From positions 1 through 32,499 of the forward strand of contig JAQULB010000007.1 in NCBI GenBank assembly GCA_028718785.1: a stretch of DNA of 32,499 bases. Direction: 5' to 3'. A program made the translations under genes and the position numbers. Under the pieces are notes generated by a model. That model saw only the letters and a program-made list of their open reading frames with translations. It ran no database searches and was not told where the DNA came from. Position 1 is the stretch's first letter. Every line of letters starts with the position of its first letter. Shown here one piece after another: positions 210 to 32,499 of the stretch. Origin of the DNA: Minisyncoccota bacterium. GTDB lineage: Bacteria > Patescibacteriota > Minisyncoccia > Minisyncoccales > CG1-02-41-26.

Positions 210-332
210 TGACCTAAGCATCATCTTTCCAGGAAATTCCTGGCCGGAGTTAGCACCCACCAACTTCCGCCAAAGGCGAAATGGGGTTGCTGCAGGGTCA
301 TAGGGCCGTTCCCTTGCCTGCTCTTGATAACA
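210..332 (-). promoter_or_regulatory. SAM-I (S-box) riboswitch aptamer
   Basis: Minus strand reads GTTATCAAGAGCAGGCAAGGGAACGGCCCTATGACCCTGCAGCAACC...GGTGCTAACTCC...GGAAAGATGATGC, matching S-box conserved blocks (ATCAAGAG, GGCCCTATGA, GCAACC, GGTGCTAA.TCC, GAAAGATGA). Confidence 0.93.
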
Positions 333-460
333 AAACTATTCAATTAAGAACTACTTAAAATATACCAAATTAAAAACCGATGTCAATAGCCCTTTATTAA
401 AAAGTGTGTCAAAGTTAGCCGATCGGCACAGTTTGACACACTTGCAATAAATGATTTTGA

Positions 461-1296: not shown

Positions 1297-1302
1297 TAAA
1301 TC

Positions 1303-1396
1303 AACAAGAAGCTCGAGACAAATCCGCCGTATGGGGAAAGTCCGTAAGGGCTACCGAGCGTTCTGACCGCCCATTAATTGGGCGGTTATTTTGTTT
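1303..1396 (+). ncRNA. Structured small RNA candidate next to a DUF3800 gene (possible DUF3800-associated RNA motif)
   Basis: Closing stem GAAGCTCG (1308-1315)/CGAGCgTTC (1355-1363); hairpin TCCgCC-GTAT-GGGGA (1323-1337); hairpin GTCC-GTAA-GGGC with GNRA loop (1340-1351); terminator ACCGCCCA/TGGGCGGT (1366-1386) followed by TATTTTGTTTTC. Confidence 0.6.
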
Positions 1397-9178: not shown

Positions 9179-9955
9179 TTACAACTTTGCTTGCTTAATA
9201 AACTCGGGAAACATTTCTAACTTTTTACTCTCGCTTGGGTTAAACAAAAATGGTTCAACATCTTTAGCTAATTCCTTAAAATCAAATTCACTAATTGCCT
9301 CCAGTAGCTTATTCTTTAACGAAACTGAGTCGCTTATCTCCATTTTTTCTTTTAAATATTCATAGTTTGGATTAGTAAAAGAAAGCAAAAAAATAATATC
9401 ATAAAAATCTCTACCTTTTGCTCTCTTACGATTTAACGCGGCATAAATTTTTTGCGATAAAATAACATCAGCGGGCACAGTAAAAACTGAAGTAAAAACA
9501 TCAAACTTATTTAAAATTTTCTTTTCTGGGGTAAAAGAAAAGCTATGCGGAGCTGTATCAATTTGGATCATTAATTTTTCGCTGGCCATCGGCGACAATT
9601 CATTTAAAAATAAAATTTTGGGCAGTTTTATTTTACATCTAAACGCCCCCTTAAAAACATTATCATTCTCAACCTCAAAACCCTGCTTTTCCAGCCCAGC
9701 TTTAACTGTGTTAGCTAAGCCAGTAAATTCTTCTTCGGTTAAGCCAAAATTGTCAAAATCTAAATCTTCAGAAAAGCGATTATTGTCATAAATAATCCGC
9801 AAAGCCGTGCCACCCAAAAATGCCAGCTTACTGGCAAATTCAGAGTTAAAAATTATTTCCAAAATTTTGTACTGCAAATACTCTCGCAAAAGATTTTTTT
9901 TGAAAGCTTGTAAGCTTTCTGGGTAACTTTGCTCAATTTGTTTTAAAGTAAGCAT
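9179..9955 (-). CDS. abiEii: AbiEii-family nucleotidyltransferase toxin
   Basis: FLGGTALRIIYDNNRFSEDLDFDNFGL nucleotidyltransferase motif; ...AALNRKRAKGRDFYDI. Confidence 0.92.
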   Translation of the reverse strand: MLTLKQIEQSYPESLQAFKKNLLREYLQYKILEIIFNSEFASKLAFLGGTALRIIYDNNRFSEDLDFDNFGLTEEEFTGLANTVKAGLEKQGFEVENDNVFKGAFRCKIKLPKILFLNELSPMASEKLMIQIDTAPHSFSFTPEKKILNKFDVFTSVFTVPADVILSQKIYAALNRKRAKGRDFYDIIFLLSFTNPNYEYLKEKMEISDSVSLKNKLLEAISEFDFKELAKDVEPFLFNPSESKKLEMFPEFIKQAKL

Positions 9956-9963
9956 AATTGTTA

Positions 9964-10578
9964 TTAATTTTTAATAAATTGCAAAAAATTTTCCACCCGC
10001 TTATTTAAATTCTTATTCTTAAATACGGCTAAATACTGATTTAGCTTTTGCATGTTTGCCTTAACTAAAAACTCTTGGGCGTTAAAGCGTAACTCAAAAA
10101 AATCAGCTGTTGTTTCCAACTGTGGGTTAATATACAAGTAATCTAAAACTGCCTTTTCAATTTCAGCCATCTTATAATTTTGATTTTGATAACTCACAAG
10201 AGAATAACCAAACATTAAACTTGGCTTAACCTTGTGGTAAATAAACTCGCCCAAAGGTGTCTTAAAATTGGCTGTCTTTTTTGTAGTGGCGCAAGTAACC
10301 CCATAAACACTTTCTGGAATTAAGCCATAATGCGAAAAAGCCATTTCAAAAGAAACATACGATGGTGCATAAAGCTTATTGGCAATCAAAAACAACGCTT
10401 GCTCATCAAGCTTGGTATCGCTAAAAACATAATACCCCCGGCGAATTTTTTTGATATATCCCTTGCTTTGCCATTCATTAAGACGGCGCAAATCAAAACC
10501 AGCTTCAACCTTGCGAATATCAGCCAATGAAAATACGAAGAAATTATTTAGTTTTTCCCTCAACTCTAAATACTGCAT
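9964..10578 (-). CDS. abiEi: AbiEi-like antitoxin / transcriptional regulator
   Basis: FSLADIRKV...RRLNEWQSKGYIKKIRRGYYVFSD winged-helix start and VSFEMAFSHYGLIPESVYGVTCATTKKT; adjacent to AbiEii. Confidence 0.9.
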   Translation of the reverse strand: MQYLELREKLNNFFVFSLADIRKVEAGFDLRRLNEWQSKGYIKKIRRGYYVFSDTKLDEQALFLIANKLYAPSYVSFEMAFSHYGLIPESVYGVTCATTKKTANFKTPLGEFIYHKVKPSLMFGYSLVSYQNQNYKMAEIEKAVLDYLYINPQLETTADFFELRFNAQEFLVKANMQKLNQYLAVFKNKNLNKRVENFLQFIKN

Positions 10579-10837: not shown

Positions 10838-11308
10838 CTATCGCTCAAATTCAAGTAGTACCTTCAAATACTCCGCTTGGCTTTTATACGAAACCAAATT
10901 TTCTGATAGGTCGCCAATAGCACCTTCTTCTAATACTTTTTTACATAAACCACACTTGAATCCGCTTGGAGTAGCCACAAACAGCCAGGGATATTCCCAT
11001 CTTTCTATTAATTTTTTAGCATACCCTTTAAGATCCTCAATATTTAGCTTGCTTTGATATTTAACCTCAACAAGATAAACCTCGGTTTTATCATGGGAGA
11101 TTAAAACAAAATCTGGAGCATCGGCAATATTGTCTATAATTGTCTGCACTTTTACCAAACTTCTGTATTGAGCAAGAGTGGGCATGGTGTGTTCATATCC
11201 AAAGGGAATGATCGTATATCTACCCTCTTCGCGCATCATTTGCTCAAATATAACCTCCGCTATTTTTCCTTTAATTAATTTTCGAACAAAACCAATATTT
11301 TTATTCAT
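10838..11308 (-). CDS. Hypothetical protein, possible PD-(D/E)xK-like fold
   Basis: APDFVLISHDKTEVYLVEVKYQS contains a D...ExK arrangement; C-terminal Cys pair CGLC. Confidence 0.55.
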   Translation of the reverse strand: MNKNIGFVRKLIKGKIAEVIFEQMMREEGRYTIIPFGYEHTMPTLAQYRSLVKVQTIIDNIADAPDFVLISHDKTEVYLVEVKYQSKLNIEDLKGYAKKLIERWEYPWLFVATPSGFKCGLCKKVLEEGAIGDLSENLVSYKSQAEYLKVLLEFER

Positions 11309-12248: not shown

Positions 12249-13070
12249 CTAAAAATTCCTAAACAATAAATAGCCACAAAACTTACATTTGAAGTCGTCC
12301 TCTAATGAGTGCGGATTAATTATTTGTAACTTTCTACATTTTTCACAACATGTAACGATTGGAAATAATGCCTCCATATCTTTTTTATTTTCTTCAAAAA
12401 AAGTTTCCAAATTTTCTGTAAAAATCTTGAATAATCCTACGTCTTCCTTACCCCCAAAAGAACAAACAGGCAACAACTCATGGAGCCAACCACTTTCTCT
12501 TTCCGAAGATTTTCCTGAAAATGGTTCTAACGCAAATGGATAATAGCTAAACCCATTATTGCATACTTTTTTGCCTTTTTTCACAACATAGGGCTGAATT
12601 ATTTTTATTAAATTATTATCCAATAGAGAAAAATACTTTTCGAGAATAAAAATTTCAAATAGAGAAACTCTGCCACTTCCAAACGATCTTAATTTCTCTA
12701 ACTGCTTTACAGTTTTATTTATCTTTTTATCACCACTATGTGTTGCTCCTACCCTACCTCTTTTATTTACTTTACAAGTTTTTATCTCAGCAACTTGATA
12801 AAGCCTTTCTTCCCTACAAATAGAAGGAAGTTTAGAAAAAGAAATTAAAAAATCTACATCTCCATTAACACCACTTCCAAAAATATCTAGCGGAATATTT
12901 ACACCAACCCAATACCAAAATGAACCCGAGGTATATAAATTTTGCAAAAAAATTGGTGATAAAATAAATCGAAATATCGCATTTCTCTCTCTTTCTTCAT
13001 TCCCTACGTTAAACAAAAAATTTTGCTTCTTTTTTTTAAAAGTATCTCTTATAGAACGTAGCCAACTCAT
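12249..13070 (-). CDS. Hypothetical protein: possible nuclease-like core plus C-terminal zinc ribbon
   Basis: DVDFLISF...LYQVAEIKTCKV (D...ExK-like) and CCEKCRKLQIINPHSLEDDFKCKFCGYLLF (paired CxxC). Confidence 0.6.
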   Translation of the reverse strand: MSWLRSIRDTFKKKKQNFLFNVGNEERERNAIFRFILSPIFLQNLYTSGSFWYWVGVNIPLDIFGSGVNGDVDFLISFSKLPSICREERLYQVAEIKTCKVNKRGRVGATHSGDKKINKTVKQLEKLRSFGSGRVSLFEIFILEKYFSLLDNNLIKIIQPYVVKKGKKVCNNGFSYYPFALEPFSGKSSERESGWLHELLPVCSFGGKEDVGLFKIFTENLETFFEENKKDMEALFPIVTCCEKCRKLQIINPHSLEDDFKCKFCGYLLFRNF

Positions 13071-13182: not shown

Positions 13183-13287
13183 TTATTTCCCAGATTTGGT
13201 GCGGTTGTCTTGTTTGCATAACATTTGGCAATTTTCTGCTATTGTTTTTCCTCCTTCGTGCCAGGGTTTTATGTGGTCAGATTCCAT
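13183..13287 (-). pseudogene. HNH endonuclease C-terminal fragment
   Basis: Minus-strand [34 protein letters not shown] matches the HNH core; no upstream half in frame. Confidence 0.7.
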
Positions 13288-13308
13288 CGCTACGACCAAA
13301 TTTCCTCC

Positions 13309-14001
13309 TTATATCAAATTTAATTCTATAAGACTTGAAAATTTATCTTTGGTAATAATGAGGTGGTCGGTGACAGTAATTCCTAAAATCTTACCAGCTT
13401 CCACTAGTCGTTTTGTAGTTACAATATCATCATCTGAGGGCTTGCTGTCGCCGGACGGATGATTATGGGCAACAACAACATGAGACGAGTTGTTCAAAAT
13501 CGCTTTCTTAAATACCTCGCGAGGATGCACAAGGCTAGCACTCAACGTCCCAACAGAAACCTCATCCACAATTAAATTATTTCGAACATCAAAGCACAAA
13601 ACGGTAAAATGTTCTTTCTTTTCTTTCCCAATTCTTTCTTTCAAGTATTCAAATAGTAACTGTGGCGAATCTAATCGTTTATTTGGAATAATTTTTTCTT
13701 TGGCATAACGCTCAGATATCGCTTGAAACAATTTAACGCCAAAAACATTAGATGGCCCGATCCCTTTAACCTGTTGTAACTCTTCTATTGTTGAATCCAA
13801 CACACCTGTTAATCCTTTAAACCTTACAATTGCTTCTTTCGCAGATTGTTTACAATCTTTTCTAGGCGTTCCGAGCGTTAAGAGTAGTTCAATAACTTCG
13901 TAATCAAGAAACCCATCGAGCCCAGATTGTAAAAATTTTTCTCTTAATCTTTTCCTATGCCCCTTCCCTTTATGTTGTTTGACAATTGATTGTATGCTCA
14001 T
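13309..14001 (-). CDS. radC: RadC family JAB/MPN protein
   Basis: HVVVAHNHPSGDSKPSDDDI and preceding HhH region (LQQVKGIGPSNVFGVKLFQAI). Confidence 0.95.
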   Translation of the reverse strand: MSIQSIVKQHKGKGHRKRLREKFLQSGLDGFLDYEVIELLLTLGTPRKDCKQSAKEAIVRFKGLTGVLDSTIEELQQVKGIGPSNVFGVKLFQAISERYAKEKIIPNKRLDSPQLLFEYLKERIGKEKKEHFTVLCFDVRNNLIVDEVSVGTLSASLVHPREVFKKAILNNSSHVVVAHNHPSGDSKPSDDDIVTTKRLVEAGKILGITVTDHLIITKDKFSSLIELNLI

Positions 14002-14002
14002 A

Positions 14003-15967
14003 CTAATTATCAGTCATTAATGAAATACCATCATCAATATTCTTATCAACACTATCCTTTGTATTACTTGCATTAAGCCTCTGTCTAAAATATTCTTGCG
14101 TCCCTGGATCTGTGCAATAAATATAACAACCCTTCATCCCTCGCGACATTAAAACGCGATAAATATTCTTTACATACTTGTCAAAATTATCTCTATTACG
14201 TCTTAACATTGGATCCGCAGTAGCTGTAATATCGCCCTCCAATCTATCTGTATTTGGATTATATTTTAAATCATTGCCTATTATTACACCGATGTAATCA
14301 AACTCAAAACCCTGTGCGGTATAAATACATCCAACCTGCTTAATGCCCACTGGCTTGTAAGCCCATTCATACCACTTAGCATACCCTCTTGGTGGAGTAA
14401 CATTATCATGAGTTTCCCATGGCATAGCAAAATCACCAATCACAATATCTTTTACCAATTCACCGTTTGAATCTAACTTTTGTGACCACGGCCAACAGAA
14501 TCCGGCTACTATACGAGAAAAATTACCTTTGCCCGGATTATTTTTTATACCCTCAGCTTCTTTTTCAAGTAGTACATTATAAAGTTCTTGCGGTGTATCA
14601 AAAATTTTAAAATCAAATTTGTTTGAATCAAAAAGAGTTAAGTTGTCTTTCGTATAACCAAGAACAGACTCTAACCATTTTAAATAATCATTTGATCCCA
14701 TGCAGCGAAATTGAGTTTCTAGAGTAACTTCATCGATTGAACATTCAAATTTTTTAGCAGTCTCTCTAATTAGCTCTGCACTTCCAATTTCTAATGACCG
14801 AATATTTTGAAAATCATCAATAAAAAATACCGCAGTTTTTGCAAACCTAATAATCTGATCAATTTGTGGCATTTCTGTTCTGTCATCGACTTTAGTAAAC
14901 TGGTTATTACTAGTTTTACCAATTCTATGCGCTTCATCGATTAAAACTAAATCGCCGTCATTTTCTTTAACTCTGGACGGAATAAATCGATTCAAATTAG
15001 AGATTAATACTTCCGCATCGCGACCAACTAATTTCGACAAACCACTAATAAACGGTTTAGATTTACAAGCATAGAATGTCTTATACTTCTTTTTCGCTGC
15101 CTCTGCTAAAATATTTAAAGCAATAACTGACTTTCCAGTACCTGGTCCACCATGTACAATAATAACTGCTTTTCCGCTATTTTTCTGAGTTCTTTTAATT
15201 TTTGACCAGATCAAATTTTTTGCAACTAACTGTTCATTCAGTAAAGAAAAAACTACTTCGTTGGAAATTATTTTAGATACATTTTCTAATAGCTTCTTCG
15301 AAGGTTTAATTTCGCTTTGCATAAAACGATTGAAAACCTCAAAACCGTTACCTTTGGATAACAAAGATTTAATTTTTTCAGCCAAAAATACTGTGTCACC
15401 TTCTGTATAAAGAGGATAATCTTTTATAATCTCTTCATAAACCGGAGCGAAAAGATCTTCGCCTTCAATTTTTTTATAGTTATGACAATAAGAGCAACTA
15501 AACAAAATTAATGGCTCTTTTTTTTCAAATTCAGCAACAAAAGATTTCAAGTAACCGTCGTATCCCTTGGTCTGCTCCGCAGGATGCGGAACAATTCTAC
15601 TCTTACCACCTGTATAAGTTTCTACAAAGTTACCTTCATATTCAAGTGACTTGACACTTGCCCATTGTTTTAATTCTATTAGAACTATATTGTCTTCGTT
15701 AGATTCGTCTTTACCAAATAGTAAACAATCAATTCGACTTTGGTTATAAGGAATTTCATACTCAAGGGCAATATTAATATCTTTTAAATCAGCCATCTCA
15801 ATTAAATCTTTTATTTTTGGTAGGGAATTTCGCCACGAATTCTTTTCACCGGCACCAATTTCTCTAACAAAAGAAACCTTAAAGGCATCCGCCATTAAGC
15901 TCGTTAATCTGTTTTCTCTAATATCTTTTAAAAAAGTTTCGCTATCTGCTTTATATATTAACGCCAT
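14003..15967 (-). CDS. DUF2075 SF1-like ATPase/helicase with N-terminal nuclease-like domain
   Basis: Walker A GGPGTGKS, Walker B LVLIDEAHR, C-terminal GCIYTAQGFEFDYIGVIIG...YRVLMSRGMKG; N-terminal SRIDCLLFG...NIVLIELKQW (D...ExK). Confidence 0.93.
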   Translation of the reverse strand: MALIYKADSETFLKDIRENRLTSLMADAFKVSFVREIGAGEKNSWRNSLPKIKDLIEMADLKDINIALEYEIPYNQSRIDCLLFGKDESNEDNIVLIELKQWASVKSLEYEGNFVETYTGGKSRIVPHPAEQTKGYDGYLKSFVAEFEKKEPLILFSCSYCHNYKKIEGEDLFAPVYEEIIKDYPLYTEGDTVFLAEKIKSLLSKGNGFEVFNRFMQSEIKPSKKLLENVSKIISNEVVFSLLNEQLVAKNLIWSKIKRTQKNSGKAVIIVHGGPGTGKSVIALNILAEAAKKKYKTFYACKSKPFISGLSKLVGRDAEVLISNLNRFIPSRVKENDGDLVLIDEAHRIGKTSNNQFTKVDDRTEMPQIDQIIRFAKTAVFFIDDFQNIRSLEIGSAELIRETAKKFECSIDEVTLETQFRCMGSNDYLKWLESVLGYTKDNLTLFDSNKFDFKIFDTPQELYNVLLEKEAEGIKNNPGKGNFSRIVAGFCWPWSQKLDSNGELVKDIVIGDFAMPWETHDNVTPPRGYAKWYEWAYKPVGIKQVGCIYTAQGFEFDYIGVIIGNDLKYNPNTDRLEGDITATADPMLRRNRDNFDKYVKNIYRVLMSRGMKGCYIYCTDPGTQEYFRQRLNASNTKDSVDKNIDDGISLMTDN

Positions 15968-15969
15968 AA

Positions 15970-16320
15970 TTAAAATTTGTTATACTTTGTAGCATTGCCT
16001 TTGGATTTTTCAATAGGGTATTTTTTCTCGTTTTTTATGATTTTTTTATCTAAGGCGTCCAAGATATCAATTTCTAAATCGTGGCTCATTAACAAAACCC
16101 AATACAAAACATCAGCTAACTCCCCCCCTATTTCGGCTTTGTTTGTTTTTACATACTTTTCCATCTCCTCGGTGTTTTTCCACTGAAAATGCTCCATCAC
16201 CTCCCCTGCTTCTAAAACAAGCGAAAGCGATAAATCCTTTGGATTATGAAACTGCTTCCAATCCCTTGCGTCCCGCAGGTCAATTATTCTTTTGGTTAAG
16301 CTTTCAATGTTGTTGTCCAT
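15970..16320 (-). CDS. MazG-like nucleotide pyrophosphohydrolase
   Basis: LRDARDWKQFHNPKDLSLSLVLEAGEVMEHFQW...EIGGELADVLYWVLLMSHDLEID. Confidence 0.93.
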   Translation of the reverse strand: MDNNIESLTKRIIDLRDARDWKQFHNPKDLSLSLVLEAGEVMEHFQWKNTEEMEKYVKTNKAEIGGELADVLYWVLLMSHDLEIDILDALDKKIIKNEKKYPIEKSKGNATKYNKF

Positions 16321-16322
16321 AG

Positions 16323-17213
16323 TTATTTATTATAAACAAAATCTTCAGCGATTTTCCAAACGCCTTTTTCGAGAAAGGCCTCTATGGTTTGCCTATTTGC
16401 CTTGTTGATTAAATTTGAATGAGAAAGTTTATTTATTTTTCCATATTCAGCGAGTGTGATAATTTTTTTACCTTCCAAATAAGCTAATCGTTTGTGATAG
16501 CTGTTAGTAAGGGCTTTGCCAACTATATCCTCCATAATAATAGTTTCTCCTTTTCCATCAAACTCCCTAAATGCATCATAATATTTTGCCCTATCAATAA
16601 ATTTTATATTTATTGGAACAAACCCCTCTCGTATTAATAAATAATTATTAATAACTCTTCCAATACGGCCATTGCCATCACAAAATGGATGGATATGCTC
16701 AAACGAAAGATGTATTTTTGCTATTCGTTTGATAATATTTTCATGGCTCATCGCGTTATATTCCGCCAGCATTCTTTTTAAAAGATCTATTACTTCTTTT
16801 GGATTAGGGGCTATATAACTTCCCACGCGAACAAATTCATCATCTTTTCTAAATCTTCCGGCAACATCATCACGGATATTTGAAATTAACATTTTATGAA
16901 GCAATAAAATTACCTCAAGAGAAATTTCTTGCTCTTTAGCTTTTCTGTCTATGTATGACACAACCCGCGCTAAATTTTTAGCTTCAAAAATTTCTCTTTC
17001 AGTGATAAATCTATCTAAATCAATCTGTAAGAGTATTTTTTCTGTCTCCTCAAGAGTAAGCGTGCTGTTTTCTATAGCGTTGGAATTGTATACCTGTTCA
17101 GCAACTTCGGTTTCTGCGATAAGCTTAATAAGCGCATCCTTGCCTGTAGCGACTTTATAGTACCTCTCACGAAGAGAATTTATTTTATTAAAAACATTGA
17201 GTGTTTTTGCCAT
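16323..17213 (-). CDS. Fic family protein (class II-type) with C-terminal HTH
   Basis: HPFCDGNGRIGR catalytic motif; SNAIEN fits the [S/T]xxxE[G/N] inhibitory motif; C-terminal ITLAEYGKINKLSHSNLINKANRQ resembles an HTH. Confidence 0.95.
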   Translation of the reverse strand: MAKTLNVFNKINSLRERYYKVATGKDALIKLIAETEVAEQVYNSNAIENSTLTLEETEKILLQIDLDRFITEREIFEAKNLARVVSYIDRKAKEQEISLEVILLLHKMLISNIRDDVAGRFRKDDEFVRVGSYIAPNPKEVIDLLKRMLAEYNAMSHENIIKRIAKIHLSFEHIHPFCDGNGRIGRVINNYLLIREGFVPINIKFIDRAKYYDAFREFDGKGETIIMEDIVGKALTNSYHKRLAYLEGKKIITLAEYGKINKLSHSNLINKANRQTIEAFLEKGVWKIAEDFVYNK

Positions 17214-17241
17214 ATACTTATATTTTATTATTTATAGCTTT

Positions 17242-17269
17242 ATTTTAGCTTTTTTCACGATTTTGTCAA
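17242..17269 (-). promoter_or_regulatory. Promoter of the fic-mazG-DUF2075-radC operon
   Basis: Minus strand TTGACA (17264-17269), 16-nt spacer, TAAAAT (17242-17247). Confidence 0.7.
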
Positions 17270-17315
17270 TATAATCGTGAAAATTGCTTTAAAAACATTA
17301 TTTTTCACGATTTTG
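17251..17315. promoter_or_regulatory. Operator-like repeat cluster overlapping the fic promoter
   Basis: Perfect 11-bp inverted repeat TTTTCACGATT (17252-17262)/AATCGTGAAAA (17273-17283) plus an exact 15-bp direct repeat TTTTTCACGATTTTG at 17251-17265 and 17301-17315. Confidence 0.75.
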
Positions 17316-17596
17316 ACGAGATAACCACAGGTTTTTAAAAAATGGGATGGACGGGGTGGACAAAATAAAGCCAAGGGTTGGGACAATTGCGCTTAAAAAT
17401 GGCTTAGGCCCTTCGGCGTGGCTCAGGGCAGGAAAATCAATGAAGATGAAAAATAAAACAATAACAATGTATGTTAAAACAGCAATTAAAACTTTGCGAA
17501 ACAAACTGGTTTCCCACGCCTTATCCGCTTCAACCCGAGCGCGTTGCGTTGCTTAATTTGCTCAATATCGCTTTTTAGTTGTTCTAATTCGTCCAT
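17298..17596 (-). pseudogene. Small membrane protein gene split by a frameshift
   Basis: Frame 1: MDELEQLKSDIEQIKQRNA...; frame 2: RVEADKAWETSLFRKVLIAVLTYIVIVLFFIFIDFP.... The frame changes near a GCAACGCAAC tandem at ~17540-17552. Confidence 0.65.
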
Positions 17597-17665
17597 ATTT
17601 ATATATTTTATATCCAAGGTTAAAAATTAAAGAAAAATACAATACAAAAAATCACCCTTGAAACA

Positions 17666-31594: not shown

Positions 31595-32499
31595 ATTGGG
31601 ATCAAAAACTTTTTATTTTATTGTCCCACACCACTGGGCGAACGGTTTTCCCGTACCCTAGCGGTTTCCAACCGATGTTTCTTGCCTAAAACTCTCATTG
31701 CCTCTTGTAGCTTTTTAATTTCGTTAACGCCTTTTTTAGTAAGATGTTGTCCCTTTTTTCTTTTTTCCACAATTTTCTTAAAAAGACAAAACCGTTTTGC
31801 CTGCTTGGCTTGCAACGGATTCTTTTCAAAAAATGGAATAAGAATTTCTGAAACTTCATCAAACCGGCTTACCTTGAATTTAACATGAGGATACCAACCG
31901 TATCGCTCATATTTACACTCATAAATTTTACCGCAACCAATAGTTTCTTTTATTCTGTGCAGAATTTCTTTGTCATCATCTCTGAGTTCAATAGAAAATT
32001 CTGGACGAACTAAAACTTTGTTTTTCATGCAGTCGTCTTTATAAATGCTAACCCAAAAGCTTCCCTCGCCGTCAACGAAACCAGCCACATATTGAGGATG
32101 GAGTTTTTTGATCGGTTGAATTCGTTCCTTCCTCGCTTTGGAGCGAGTACTATGAACTCTGCTGACTTCTTGCAATTGCATAAAATTTAAATTGCTTTAA
32201 ACTTTTTTACTGGTGTGGACTAGCCACAGTTTAATCATAAACTGTCCAGTAACAAATGCAAAATCTCGCTGGGTCACTAAACAAACTTTCTTCTCTATCT
32301 CGATGCTTCTACATTTAACAAGATATAATTTAAGGATAGCTTCTCCATGTACTCGCAGGATCGCCATCTTGCTAAACCACAACAAACATTCAAGCTAAAG
32401 AATGCTACTTTCGCCCTTCATCTTGCCCCTCACGAGACAAAACTGCGATTTCGCTTTTGGAAATCCTTAATTTCCCAAGTTGGATTTTAACCAACTAAT
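31595..32499 (-). other. Intervening sequence (putative group I-like intron) in 16S rRNA, truncated by the window edge
   Basis: 16S homology stops just 5' of ACCGCCCGTC and does not resume before the window end; the insert carries a LAGLIDADG ORF. Confidence 0.75.
31618..32181 (-). CDS. LAGLIDADG homing endonuclease (single-motif type)
   Basis: YVAGFVDGEGSFWVSI motif; PEFSIELRDDDKEILHRIKETIGCGKIY. Confidence 0.94.
   Translation of the reverse strand: MQLQEVSRVHSTRSKARKERIQPIKKLHPQYVAGFVDGEGSFWVSIYKDDCMKNKVLVRPEFSIELRDDDKEILHRIKETIGCGKIYECKYERYGWYPHVKFKVSRFDEVSEILIPFFEKNPLQAKQAKRFCLFKKIVEKRKKGQHLTKKGVNEIKKLQEAMRVLGKKHRLETARVRENRSPSGVGQ

Follow-up and report, generated by a model that had tools for sequence, protein, structure and literature searches.

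Several described systems resemble parts of the locus treated here. Gabija brings nuclease, helicase and nucleotide-hydrolysing functions together in one compact operon, and Nhi/AbiO carries a nuclease and a helicase in one chain. Type IV restriction is represented by VcaM4I, SauUSI, McrA, McrBC and Mrr; VcaM4I is an EVE-HNH endonuclease that senses DNA containing 5-methylcytosine or 5-hydroxymethylcytosine (PMC7897488), and MutT pyrophosphohydrolase genes have been noted beside SauUSI homologues (PMC7641849). Human dCTP pyrophosphatase 1 (DCTPP1) is a house-cleaning enzyme with a Km near 100 µM (85 µM for 5-methyl-dCTP versus 152 µM for dCTP) that lowers cellular 5-methyl-dCTP (PMC4491611), and DefensePredictor places MazG among its predicted, unvalidated defence domains implicated in nucleotide modification (PMC13092281). 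Here we analyse four adjacent genes, encoding Fic, MazG-like, nuclease-helicase and RadC proteins, on a stretch of 32,499 nt from a Minisyncoccota bacterium (assembly GCA_028718785.1, contig JAQULB010000007.1, positions 1 to 32,499 of the forward strand; the window), whose genome of 841 kb in 18 contigs is rated 100% complete. A first-pass annotation had taken the four genes as one functional unit in which nucleic-acid sensing is coupled to nucleotide depletion and protein modification. Comparison across genomes shows instead that the conserved core is a widespread two-gene unit, consisting of the MazG-like pyrophosphohydrolase and the nuclease-helicase, with RadC as an accessory and, on the evidence of phylum-wide neighbourhoods, Fic as a separate element. 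The MazG-helicase pair probably protects microbes from viruses.

A scan of species genomes identified helicase relatives at 80 loci, from Bacteroidota, Bacillota, the candidate phyla radiation, DPANN archaea, haloarchaea, methanogens and Pseudomonadota. The helicases were clustered at 60% identity and the 39 clusters with sufficient flanking sequence were counted. A MazG gene lies within 300 nt of the helicase and on the same strand in 30 of these, bacterial and archaeal, and within 20 nt in 27. Chance does not explain the adjacency of MazG and helicase, given these counts and the absence of any match to MazG, the helicase, RadC or Fic from 18 control stretches, each of 16 kb, on the same contigs. 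The helicase is sporadic in the phylum of the window (25 of 380 genomes), where MazG adjoins it in 16 of 18 relatives. Gene order is variable: MazG is mostly upstream of the helicase and is downstream in a Clostridia group, and in four loci (L021, L023, L066 and L077) tandem helicases flank a single MazG. The pairing thus persists through rearrangements, as a functional link would predict. Copies of the module are also carried by plasmids and phages, with at least two helicase loci in the viral collection that was scanned. The co-location beyond close relatives that the first-pass annotation implied therefore holds for MazG and the helicase and recurs for RadC, but not for Fic. In a literature search with most subscription papers outside its reach, we found no description of the MazG-helicase pair, nor any paper combining DUF2075 with MazG or DUF2075 with Schlafen; DUF2075 by itself appears in five papers on unrelated matters.

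The features of the window locus are as follows.

16323..17213, minus strand: predicted Fic AMP-transferase with class II inhibitory motif, 296 aa (PF02661, 6e-22)
15970..16320, minus strand: 116-aa MazG-like NTP pyrophosphohydrolase, DCTPP1 type, core gene 1 (PF12643, 2e-17)
14003..15967, minus strand: nuclease-helicase, 654 aa, core gene 2 (PF09848 SLFN-g3_helicase, formerly DUF2075, 9e-84)
15302..15967, minus strand: N-terminal PD-(D/E)xK-like predicted nuclease domain, residues 1-222, with D80, E98 and K100 (residue conservation, weak fold match)
14108..15172, minus strand: SLFN-g3 helicase domain, residues 266-620, with GGPGTGKS and DEAH (PF09848, positions 1-354 of 354)
13309..14001, minus strand: RadC with HhH-type N-terminus and JAB domain, 230 aa, recurrent accessory (PF04002, 3e-40)
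13183..13308, minus strand: C-terminal fragment of an HNH endonuclease, remnant (PF01844, 1e-10, profile 13-45 of 47)
17242..17310, minus strand: Fic promoter together with its operator-like sites, TTGACA at 17264-17269 and TAAAAT at 17242-17247 (from sequence)
17252-17260, 17275-17283 and 17302-17310, minus strand: three operator-like sites at the Fic promoter (from sequence)

The coordinates given in the first-pass annotation for the four same-strand open reading frames (ORFs) were reproduced exactly, as were the spacings of 2, 2 and 1 nt between Fic, MazG, helicase and RadC, and Pfam confirmed the four families that the annotation had proposed.

The closest solved relatives of the MazG-like protein in a profile search are the pyrophosphatase 4qgp (2e-33) and human and mouse DCTPP1 (also known as RS21-C6; 7e-30), and DCTPP1 is also reached from the single sequence (1e-17). 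The MazG-like protein and DCTPP1 share the RDWxQFH and ExxE/ExxD motifs. The metal-binding residues of the ExxE/ExxD motifs (Glu37, Glu40, Glu67 and Asp70 in the MazG-like protein) are invariant in all 34 MazG sequences, which, together with the close relationship to DCTPP1, assigns the protein to the DCTPP1 type. Trp21, aligned with Trp47 of DCTPP1, is likewise found in 34 of 34 sequences and Trp47, aligned with Trp73, in 29. DCTPP1 is a lone house-cleaning gene, whereas the MazG gene is encoded beside a nuclease.

The 654-residue protein matches PF09848 over its full length (282 bits against a curated cut-off of 24), which places it among the Schlafen group 3 helicases. Its AlphaFold model is confident, with a predicted local distance difference test (pLDDT) value of 88.6, and its best Foldseek matches include RecD2, Dna2 and SLFN11. 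The relationship to the Schlafen family is evident both in sequence (SLFN11 and SLFN5) and in fold (SLFN11 and SLFN14), but the endoribonuclease core of Schlafen proteins is not matched, and a PD-(D/E)xK-like or GIY-YIG domain is found there instead. The Walker A and B motifs are conserved in all 52 homologues aligned. Within the N-terminal 220 residues, Glu69, the R78-I-D80 segment and the E98-L-K100-Q-W segment are invariant or nearly so in the same set (Asp80 and Glu98 in 51 of 52, Lys100 in 52), and the order of helices and strands fits a PD-(D/E)xK nuclease. The first-pass suggestion of an N-terminal nuclease-like region is thus upheld by its motif, and the loss of catalytic residues in homologues, which would have spoken against the proposal, is seen neither in the helicase nor in MazG. 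Modelled alone, the N-terminal domain gives a confident structure (pLDDT 89.6), and its list of structural matches, none of them significant, holds the restriction enzymes BsmI, EcoO109I, BsoBI, Bse634I and BstEII. The PD-(D/E)xK-like label is well supported by the motif and weakly by the fold, and the domain is a predicted nuclease. In three homologues (L117, L098 and L095) a GIY-YIG domain above the Pfam cut-off replaces it, and in a fourth (L116) the match is just below the cut-off. The first three retain MazG. The exchange of one nuclease fold for another suggests that cutting is the purpose of the N-terminal domain. At the other end of the chain, a peptidase S24 domain of the LexA/UmuD type is fused to the helicase C-terminus in L002, L092, L072 and L074 and in a fragment, L099; the L002 helicase is 77% identical to the window protein, and this fusion is possibly an SOS-type switch. 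A nearly identical S24 module is found on the two quite different helicases of L002 and L092.

Among the catalogued systems, the nuclease-helicase matches the PADLOC model of PDC-S41 (3.5e-20, 69.9 bits, in two stretches, the best covering residues 3-314 of 654). PDC-S41 is listed as an unpublished one-gene candidate, of which we found no published test, whereas the unit described here comprises helicase and MazG, with a nuclease domain that is PD-(D/E)xK-like or GIY-YIG. The likeness to Nhi/AbiO is a local match of the helicase core (4e-11) confined to residues 241-421; in the profile it covers positions 178-329 out of about 470 and thus does not extend over most of the length. The resemblance to Gabija lies in the combination of activities, but the four genes lack an OLD/Toprim nuclease, the nuclease and helicase form one chain with the nucleotide hydrolase separate, and no GajA or GajB model is among the PADLOC matches of the window proteins. 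With type IV enzymes the 654-residue protein would share a nuclease domain with intact catalytic residues. Because it has no recognizable domain that reads modified bases, we do not file it as a member of type IV, but it possibly works like one.

The company kept by the MazG subfamily suggests a link to modification-dependent restriction. A MazG profile scan of the viral collection gave 45 loci; one protein family adjoins MazG in 36 of 46 viral-collection loci with a MazG match (L231-L277), many of which are near-duplicates (37 distinct MazG sequences overall), and the profile of this partner family matches VcaM4I (PDB 6yex; 2.4e-7). Three phylum relatives of MazG (69-75% identity to the window protein; L198, L205 and L201) precede another nuclease with an N-terminal W...GD...HST pattern and a C-terminus that is PD-(D/E)xK-like (L198 and L205) or HNH (L201); the order in L205 is RadC-MazG-nuclease. 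The 380 phylum genomes hold three full-length copies of this nuclease, all partnered by MazG. As these copies were first located via MazG, copies without MazG are excluded by the count, but the sample is not independent. An EVE identity is not claimed for this nuclease, which has no solved relative by profile, a sub-threshold Pfam EVE match (E = 0.024) and a weak match in profile comparison with the prophage EVE-HNH family. In a further phylum genome (L210) MazG precedes an OLD/GajA-like gene.

Modification-dependent enzymes also recur beside complete pairs. In Mucilaginibacter (L070) a VcaM4I relative of full length (9.6e-81) begins 78 nt downstream of the MazG-helicase pair, and on a Priestia plasmid (L111) the order is MutT, a DUF3578 (McrB_N)-HNH gene, MazG and helicase, with an adjoining type I restriction-modification system; the C-terminal HNH domain of the second gene matches 5-methylcytosine-specific restriction enzyme A (1.7e-5). 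In L072 a gene 5 nt downstream is, on our reading of its translation, presumably Mrr-like. SauUSI-like type IV enzymes are found near the pair in L015, L033, L037, L047, L065 and L117, the last an operon of NUDIX, SauUSI-like, MazG and GIY-YIG-helicase genes. More generally, 45 PADLOC models were matched by 120 helicase-flanking ORFs and eight by 120 control ORFs (18 matched genomes, 1e-15), to be read as a trend and not as a count of systems because the models overlap. The 126 immediate neighbours matched 118 PADLOC models at 1e-20, among which type IV methyl-directed restriction is the commonest.

We propose that the locus is a two-gene type IV-like restriction module with an accessory RadC, MazG serving to exclude 5-substituted dCTP from host DNA, a reading to which we give an even chance. 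The 654-residue protein would load on invading DNA and translocate as a superfamily 1 (SF1)-type helicase of the RecD2/Dna2/Schlafen class, and its N-terminal domain would cut, preferentially or only, DNA with 5-substituted cytosines. Salvaged nucleotides such as 5-methyl-dCTP and 5-hydroxymethyl-dCTP would be hydrolysed to monophosphates by the DCTPP1-like MazG, and host DNA would thereby lack the mark that provokes cutting. An optional regulatory or processing part would be RadC or, in relatives, the fused S24 autoprotease, and the mobile Fic cassette in front of the module would supply its promoter. The nuclease activity, the dependence on modification, the substrate of MazG and its pool-cleaning role are all predictions from sequence. 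Pool cleaning would explain why one small pyrophosphatase turns up beside several unrelated nucleases that share, as far as is known, a dependence on modification, and also why MazG is helpful and not universal.

Several observations weigh against this proposal. The base-contacting His38 of DCTPP1 is replaced by Ile, Leu or Val throughout the MazG family, and hence the specificity of MazG for dCTP is not assured. When the isolated N-terminal domain was compared with known structures, there was no significant match, the best being Card1 (E = 0.023), and Pfam finds in the 654-residue protein no SRA, EVE, YTH, McrB_N or similar modified-base-reading domain, just the helicase and weak generic models. 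MazG is absent from the vicinity in nine of the 39 helicase clusters and is therefore not strictly required. Finally, type IV genes cluster with defence genes anyway, so that their association with the pair may be partly the general clustering of islands.

RadC is assigned by PF04002 (3e-40) together with PF20582 (UPF0758 N-terminal; 2e-10), and its sequence contains HNHPSGDSKPSDDD. Its phylum relatives divide into those of four genomes with 60-74% identity and others that, apart from partial matches, are at most 42% identical; a second RadC elsewhere in the window genome shows 40% identity. The four close relatives stand in the arrangements MazG-helicase-RadC, RadC-MazG-helicase, RadC-MazG-nuclease and RadC-C5-methyltransferase (L121). 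L085 and L006 have a more distant RadC next to the helicase, and overall RadC is close to the helicase in three of the 39 clusters. From these contexts and the adjacency, RadC is a recurrent defence-associated accessory, from a defence-associated subclade that recurs with MazG or restriction genes. Separately, a TPR-type protein of about 600-680 residues precedes MazG in Bacteroidota loci and a Microcystis phage (L011, L017-L021, L110 and L114) and is likely to be a further accessory.

The Fic protein contains the HPFCDGNGR motif and SNAIEN, an S-x-x-x-E-N inhibitory motif, which predict a class II Fic AMP-transferase; the solved structures closest to it are those of FICD. Neither MazG nor helicase lies within about 1.5 kb of Fic in its 29 nearest phylum relatives (50-86% identity), and a distant Fic lies upstream of MazG-helicase in just two Bacillota loci, L038 and L044. 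In the window a TTGACA-N16-TAAAAT promoter precedes Fic among three clustered TCGTGAAAA/TTTTCACGA sites, the only ones in the window, and upstream of Fic relatives the arrangement CGTGAA, about 20 nt, TTCACG, TTGACA, CGTGAA, TATAAT recurs. The TTCAC-TTGA spacing is kept in 25 of 29 Fic upstream regions (the window and 24 of 28 scored relatives) against 0.06 expected, and all three operator sites in 21 of 29 against none expected. This triple operator (CGTGAA/TTCACG) around a sigma-70-type promoter is found phylum-wide (L150-L177) and suggests an autoregulated mobile Fic family. We therefore judge Fic to be a stand-alone mobile cassette situated before the module and outside the MazG-helicase unit. 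The single promoter of the first-pass annotation does precede the operon, but it is Fic's own, and in this genome it may also drive MazG, helicase and RadC. Fic-based toxin-antitoxin function was considered and rejected, as no antitoxin-like ORF was seen beside Fic and the inhibitory motif lies within the Fic protein. In two phylum genomes (L157 and L131) Fic is directly beside RadC without MazG or helicase, through chance, an island hotspot or a functional link. Upstream of the Fic promoter, a small membrane protein gene (17298-17660, minus strand) appears to be frameshifted near its N-terminus.

These neighbourhoods bear most directly on the joint action of all four proteins, in which sensing of nucleic acids would be coupled to both nucleotide depletion and AMPylation. 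One tight operon behind one promoter and the Fic-MazG-helicase order of L038 and L044 are what such a unit would show, but with none of the 29 phylum Fic relatives adjoining MazG or helicase, the operator-promoter pattern travelling with Fic, and an inhibitory motif of its own that leaves Fic in no need of a partner for control, we consider this reading very improbable; the coupling of protein modification to sensing found no support. The depletion half of that proposal, taken without Fic, is the main rival to the restriction module: the nuclease-helicase would sense phage DNA intermediates and MazG, once released or activated, would drain dCTP and so halt phage replication, as in defence by dCTP deaminase or dGTPase. 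A MazG of the dCTP pyrophosphatase type whose active site is intact, paired with a helicase in a defence setting and listed by DefensePredictor (PMC13092281), would suit that role. The best partner record of the subfamily, however, is with modification-dependent nucleases, which need no nucleotide sensor; DCTPP1 is described as house-cleaning, with its Km near 100 µM (PMC4491611); and no control device for MazG was seen. Depletion is thus possible, but we think it unlikely, the EVE-HNH, McrA-like, SauUSI-like and Mrr-like company favouring pool cleaning beside modification-dependent restriction.

A DNA-repair or house-cleaning operon would have MazG clear damaged dNTPs, with the helicase-nuclease and RadC acting on DNA that is damaged or stalled and the defence neighbours being incidental. 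Such a role would accommodate the house-cleaning character of MazG, the adjacency of RadC, the resemblance of the SF1 helicase to RecD2 and Dna2 and the four intact S24 fusions, but it sits poorly with the sporadic distribution in the phylum, the plasmid and phage copies, the strong PADLOC neighbourhood and a RadC subclade that is separate from the other RadC of the genome and also occurs with a C5-methyltransferase. We regard it as decidedly improbable.

The defence-island setting noted in the first-pass annotation is borne out in the window by an AbiEi/AbiEii type IV toxin-antitoxin pair at 9179-10578 (minus strand), which PADLOC marks at 4e-65 and 2e-95, and by the PADLOC-rich neighbourhoods of the relatives. 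Directly 3' of RadC and in the same frame, the HNH fragment, absent from that annotation, consists of the last 41 codons without the N-terminus and is probably the remnant of an older island gene. The ORF at 12249-13070 (minus strand, 273 aa) has no Pfam match and contains a GDVDF...EIK (PD-(D/E)xK-like) segment, with a CxxC...CxxC zinc ribbon at the C-terminus; another at 10838-11308 (minus strand, 156 aa) shows a weak TnsA/PD-(D/E)xK similarity (0.004, below the cut-off). Farther away are a SAM riboswitch at 218-333 (minus strand), a DUF3800-II RNA motif (Rfam, 56.7 bits) at 1301-1368 (plus strand), antisense to the ORF at 1351-1812, and a homing-endonuclease-like ORF at 31618-32206 (minus strand) overlapped by a group II intron D1-D4 match; with tRNA-Ile and tRNA-Ala not far away, this is probably an intron that interrupts an rRNA operon.

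Recognition of the Fic gene as a mobile passenger corrects a false lead. Helicases of the DUF2075/SLFN-g3 family are common, as are small MazG-like enzymes, and we found no joint role assigned to them; their conserved pairing gives them one that can be tested. Tentatively, and with more doubt than confidence, we suggest that the module exemplifies a separate type of restriction, where self-protection would come from cleaning of the nucleotide pool and not from methylation of the genome, one pyrophosphatase subfamily serving several unrelated modification-dependent nucleases. The partner nuclease, whether nuclease-Schlafen-helicase, EVE-HNH or another, would then take every 5-substituted cytosine for foreign. 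If MazG guards the host from its own nuclease, this would answer the rarely asked question of how cells that degrade modified-cytosine DNA escape self-poisoning by salvaged modified nucleotides, a risk expected to be acute for organisms that have small genomes and depend on salvage, of which the bacterium with this 0.84-Mb genome is probably one.

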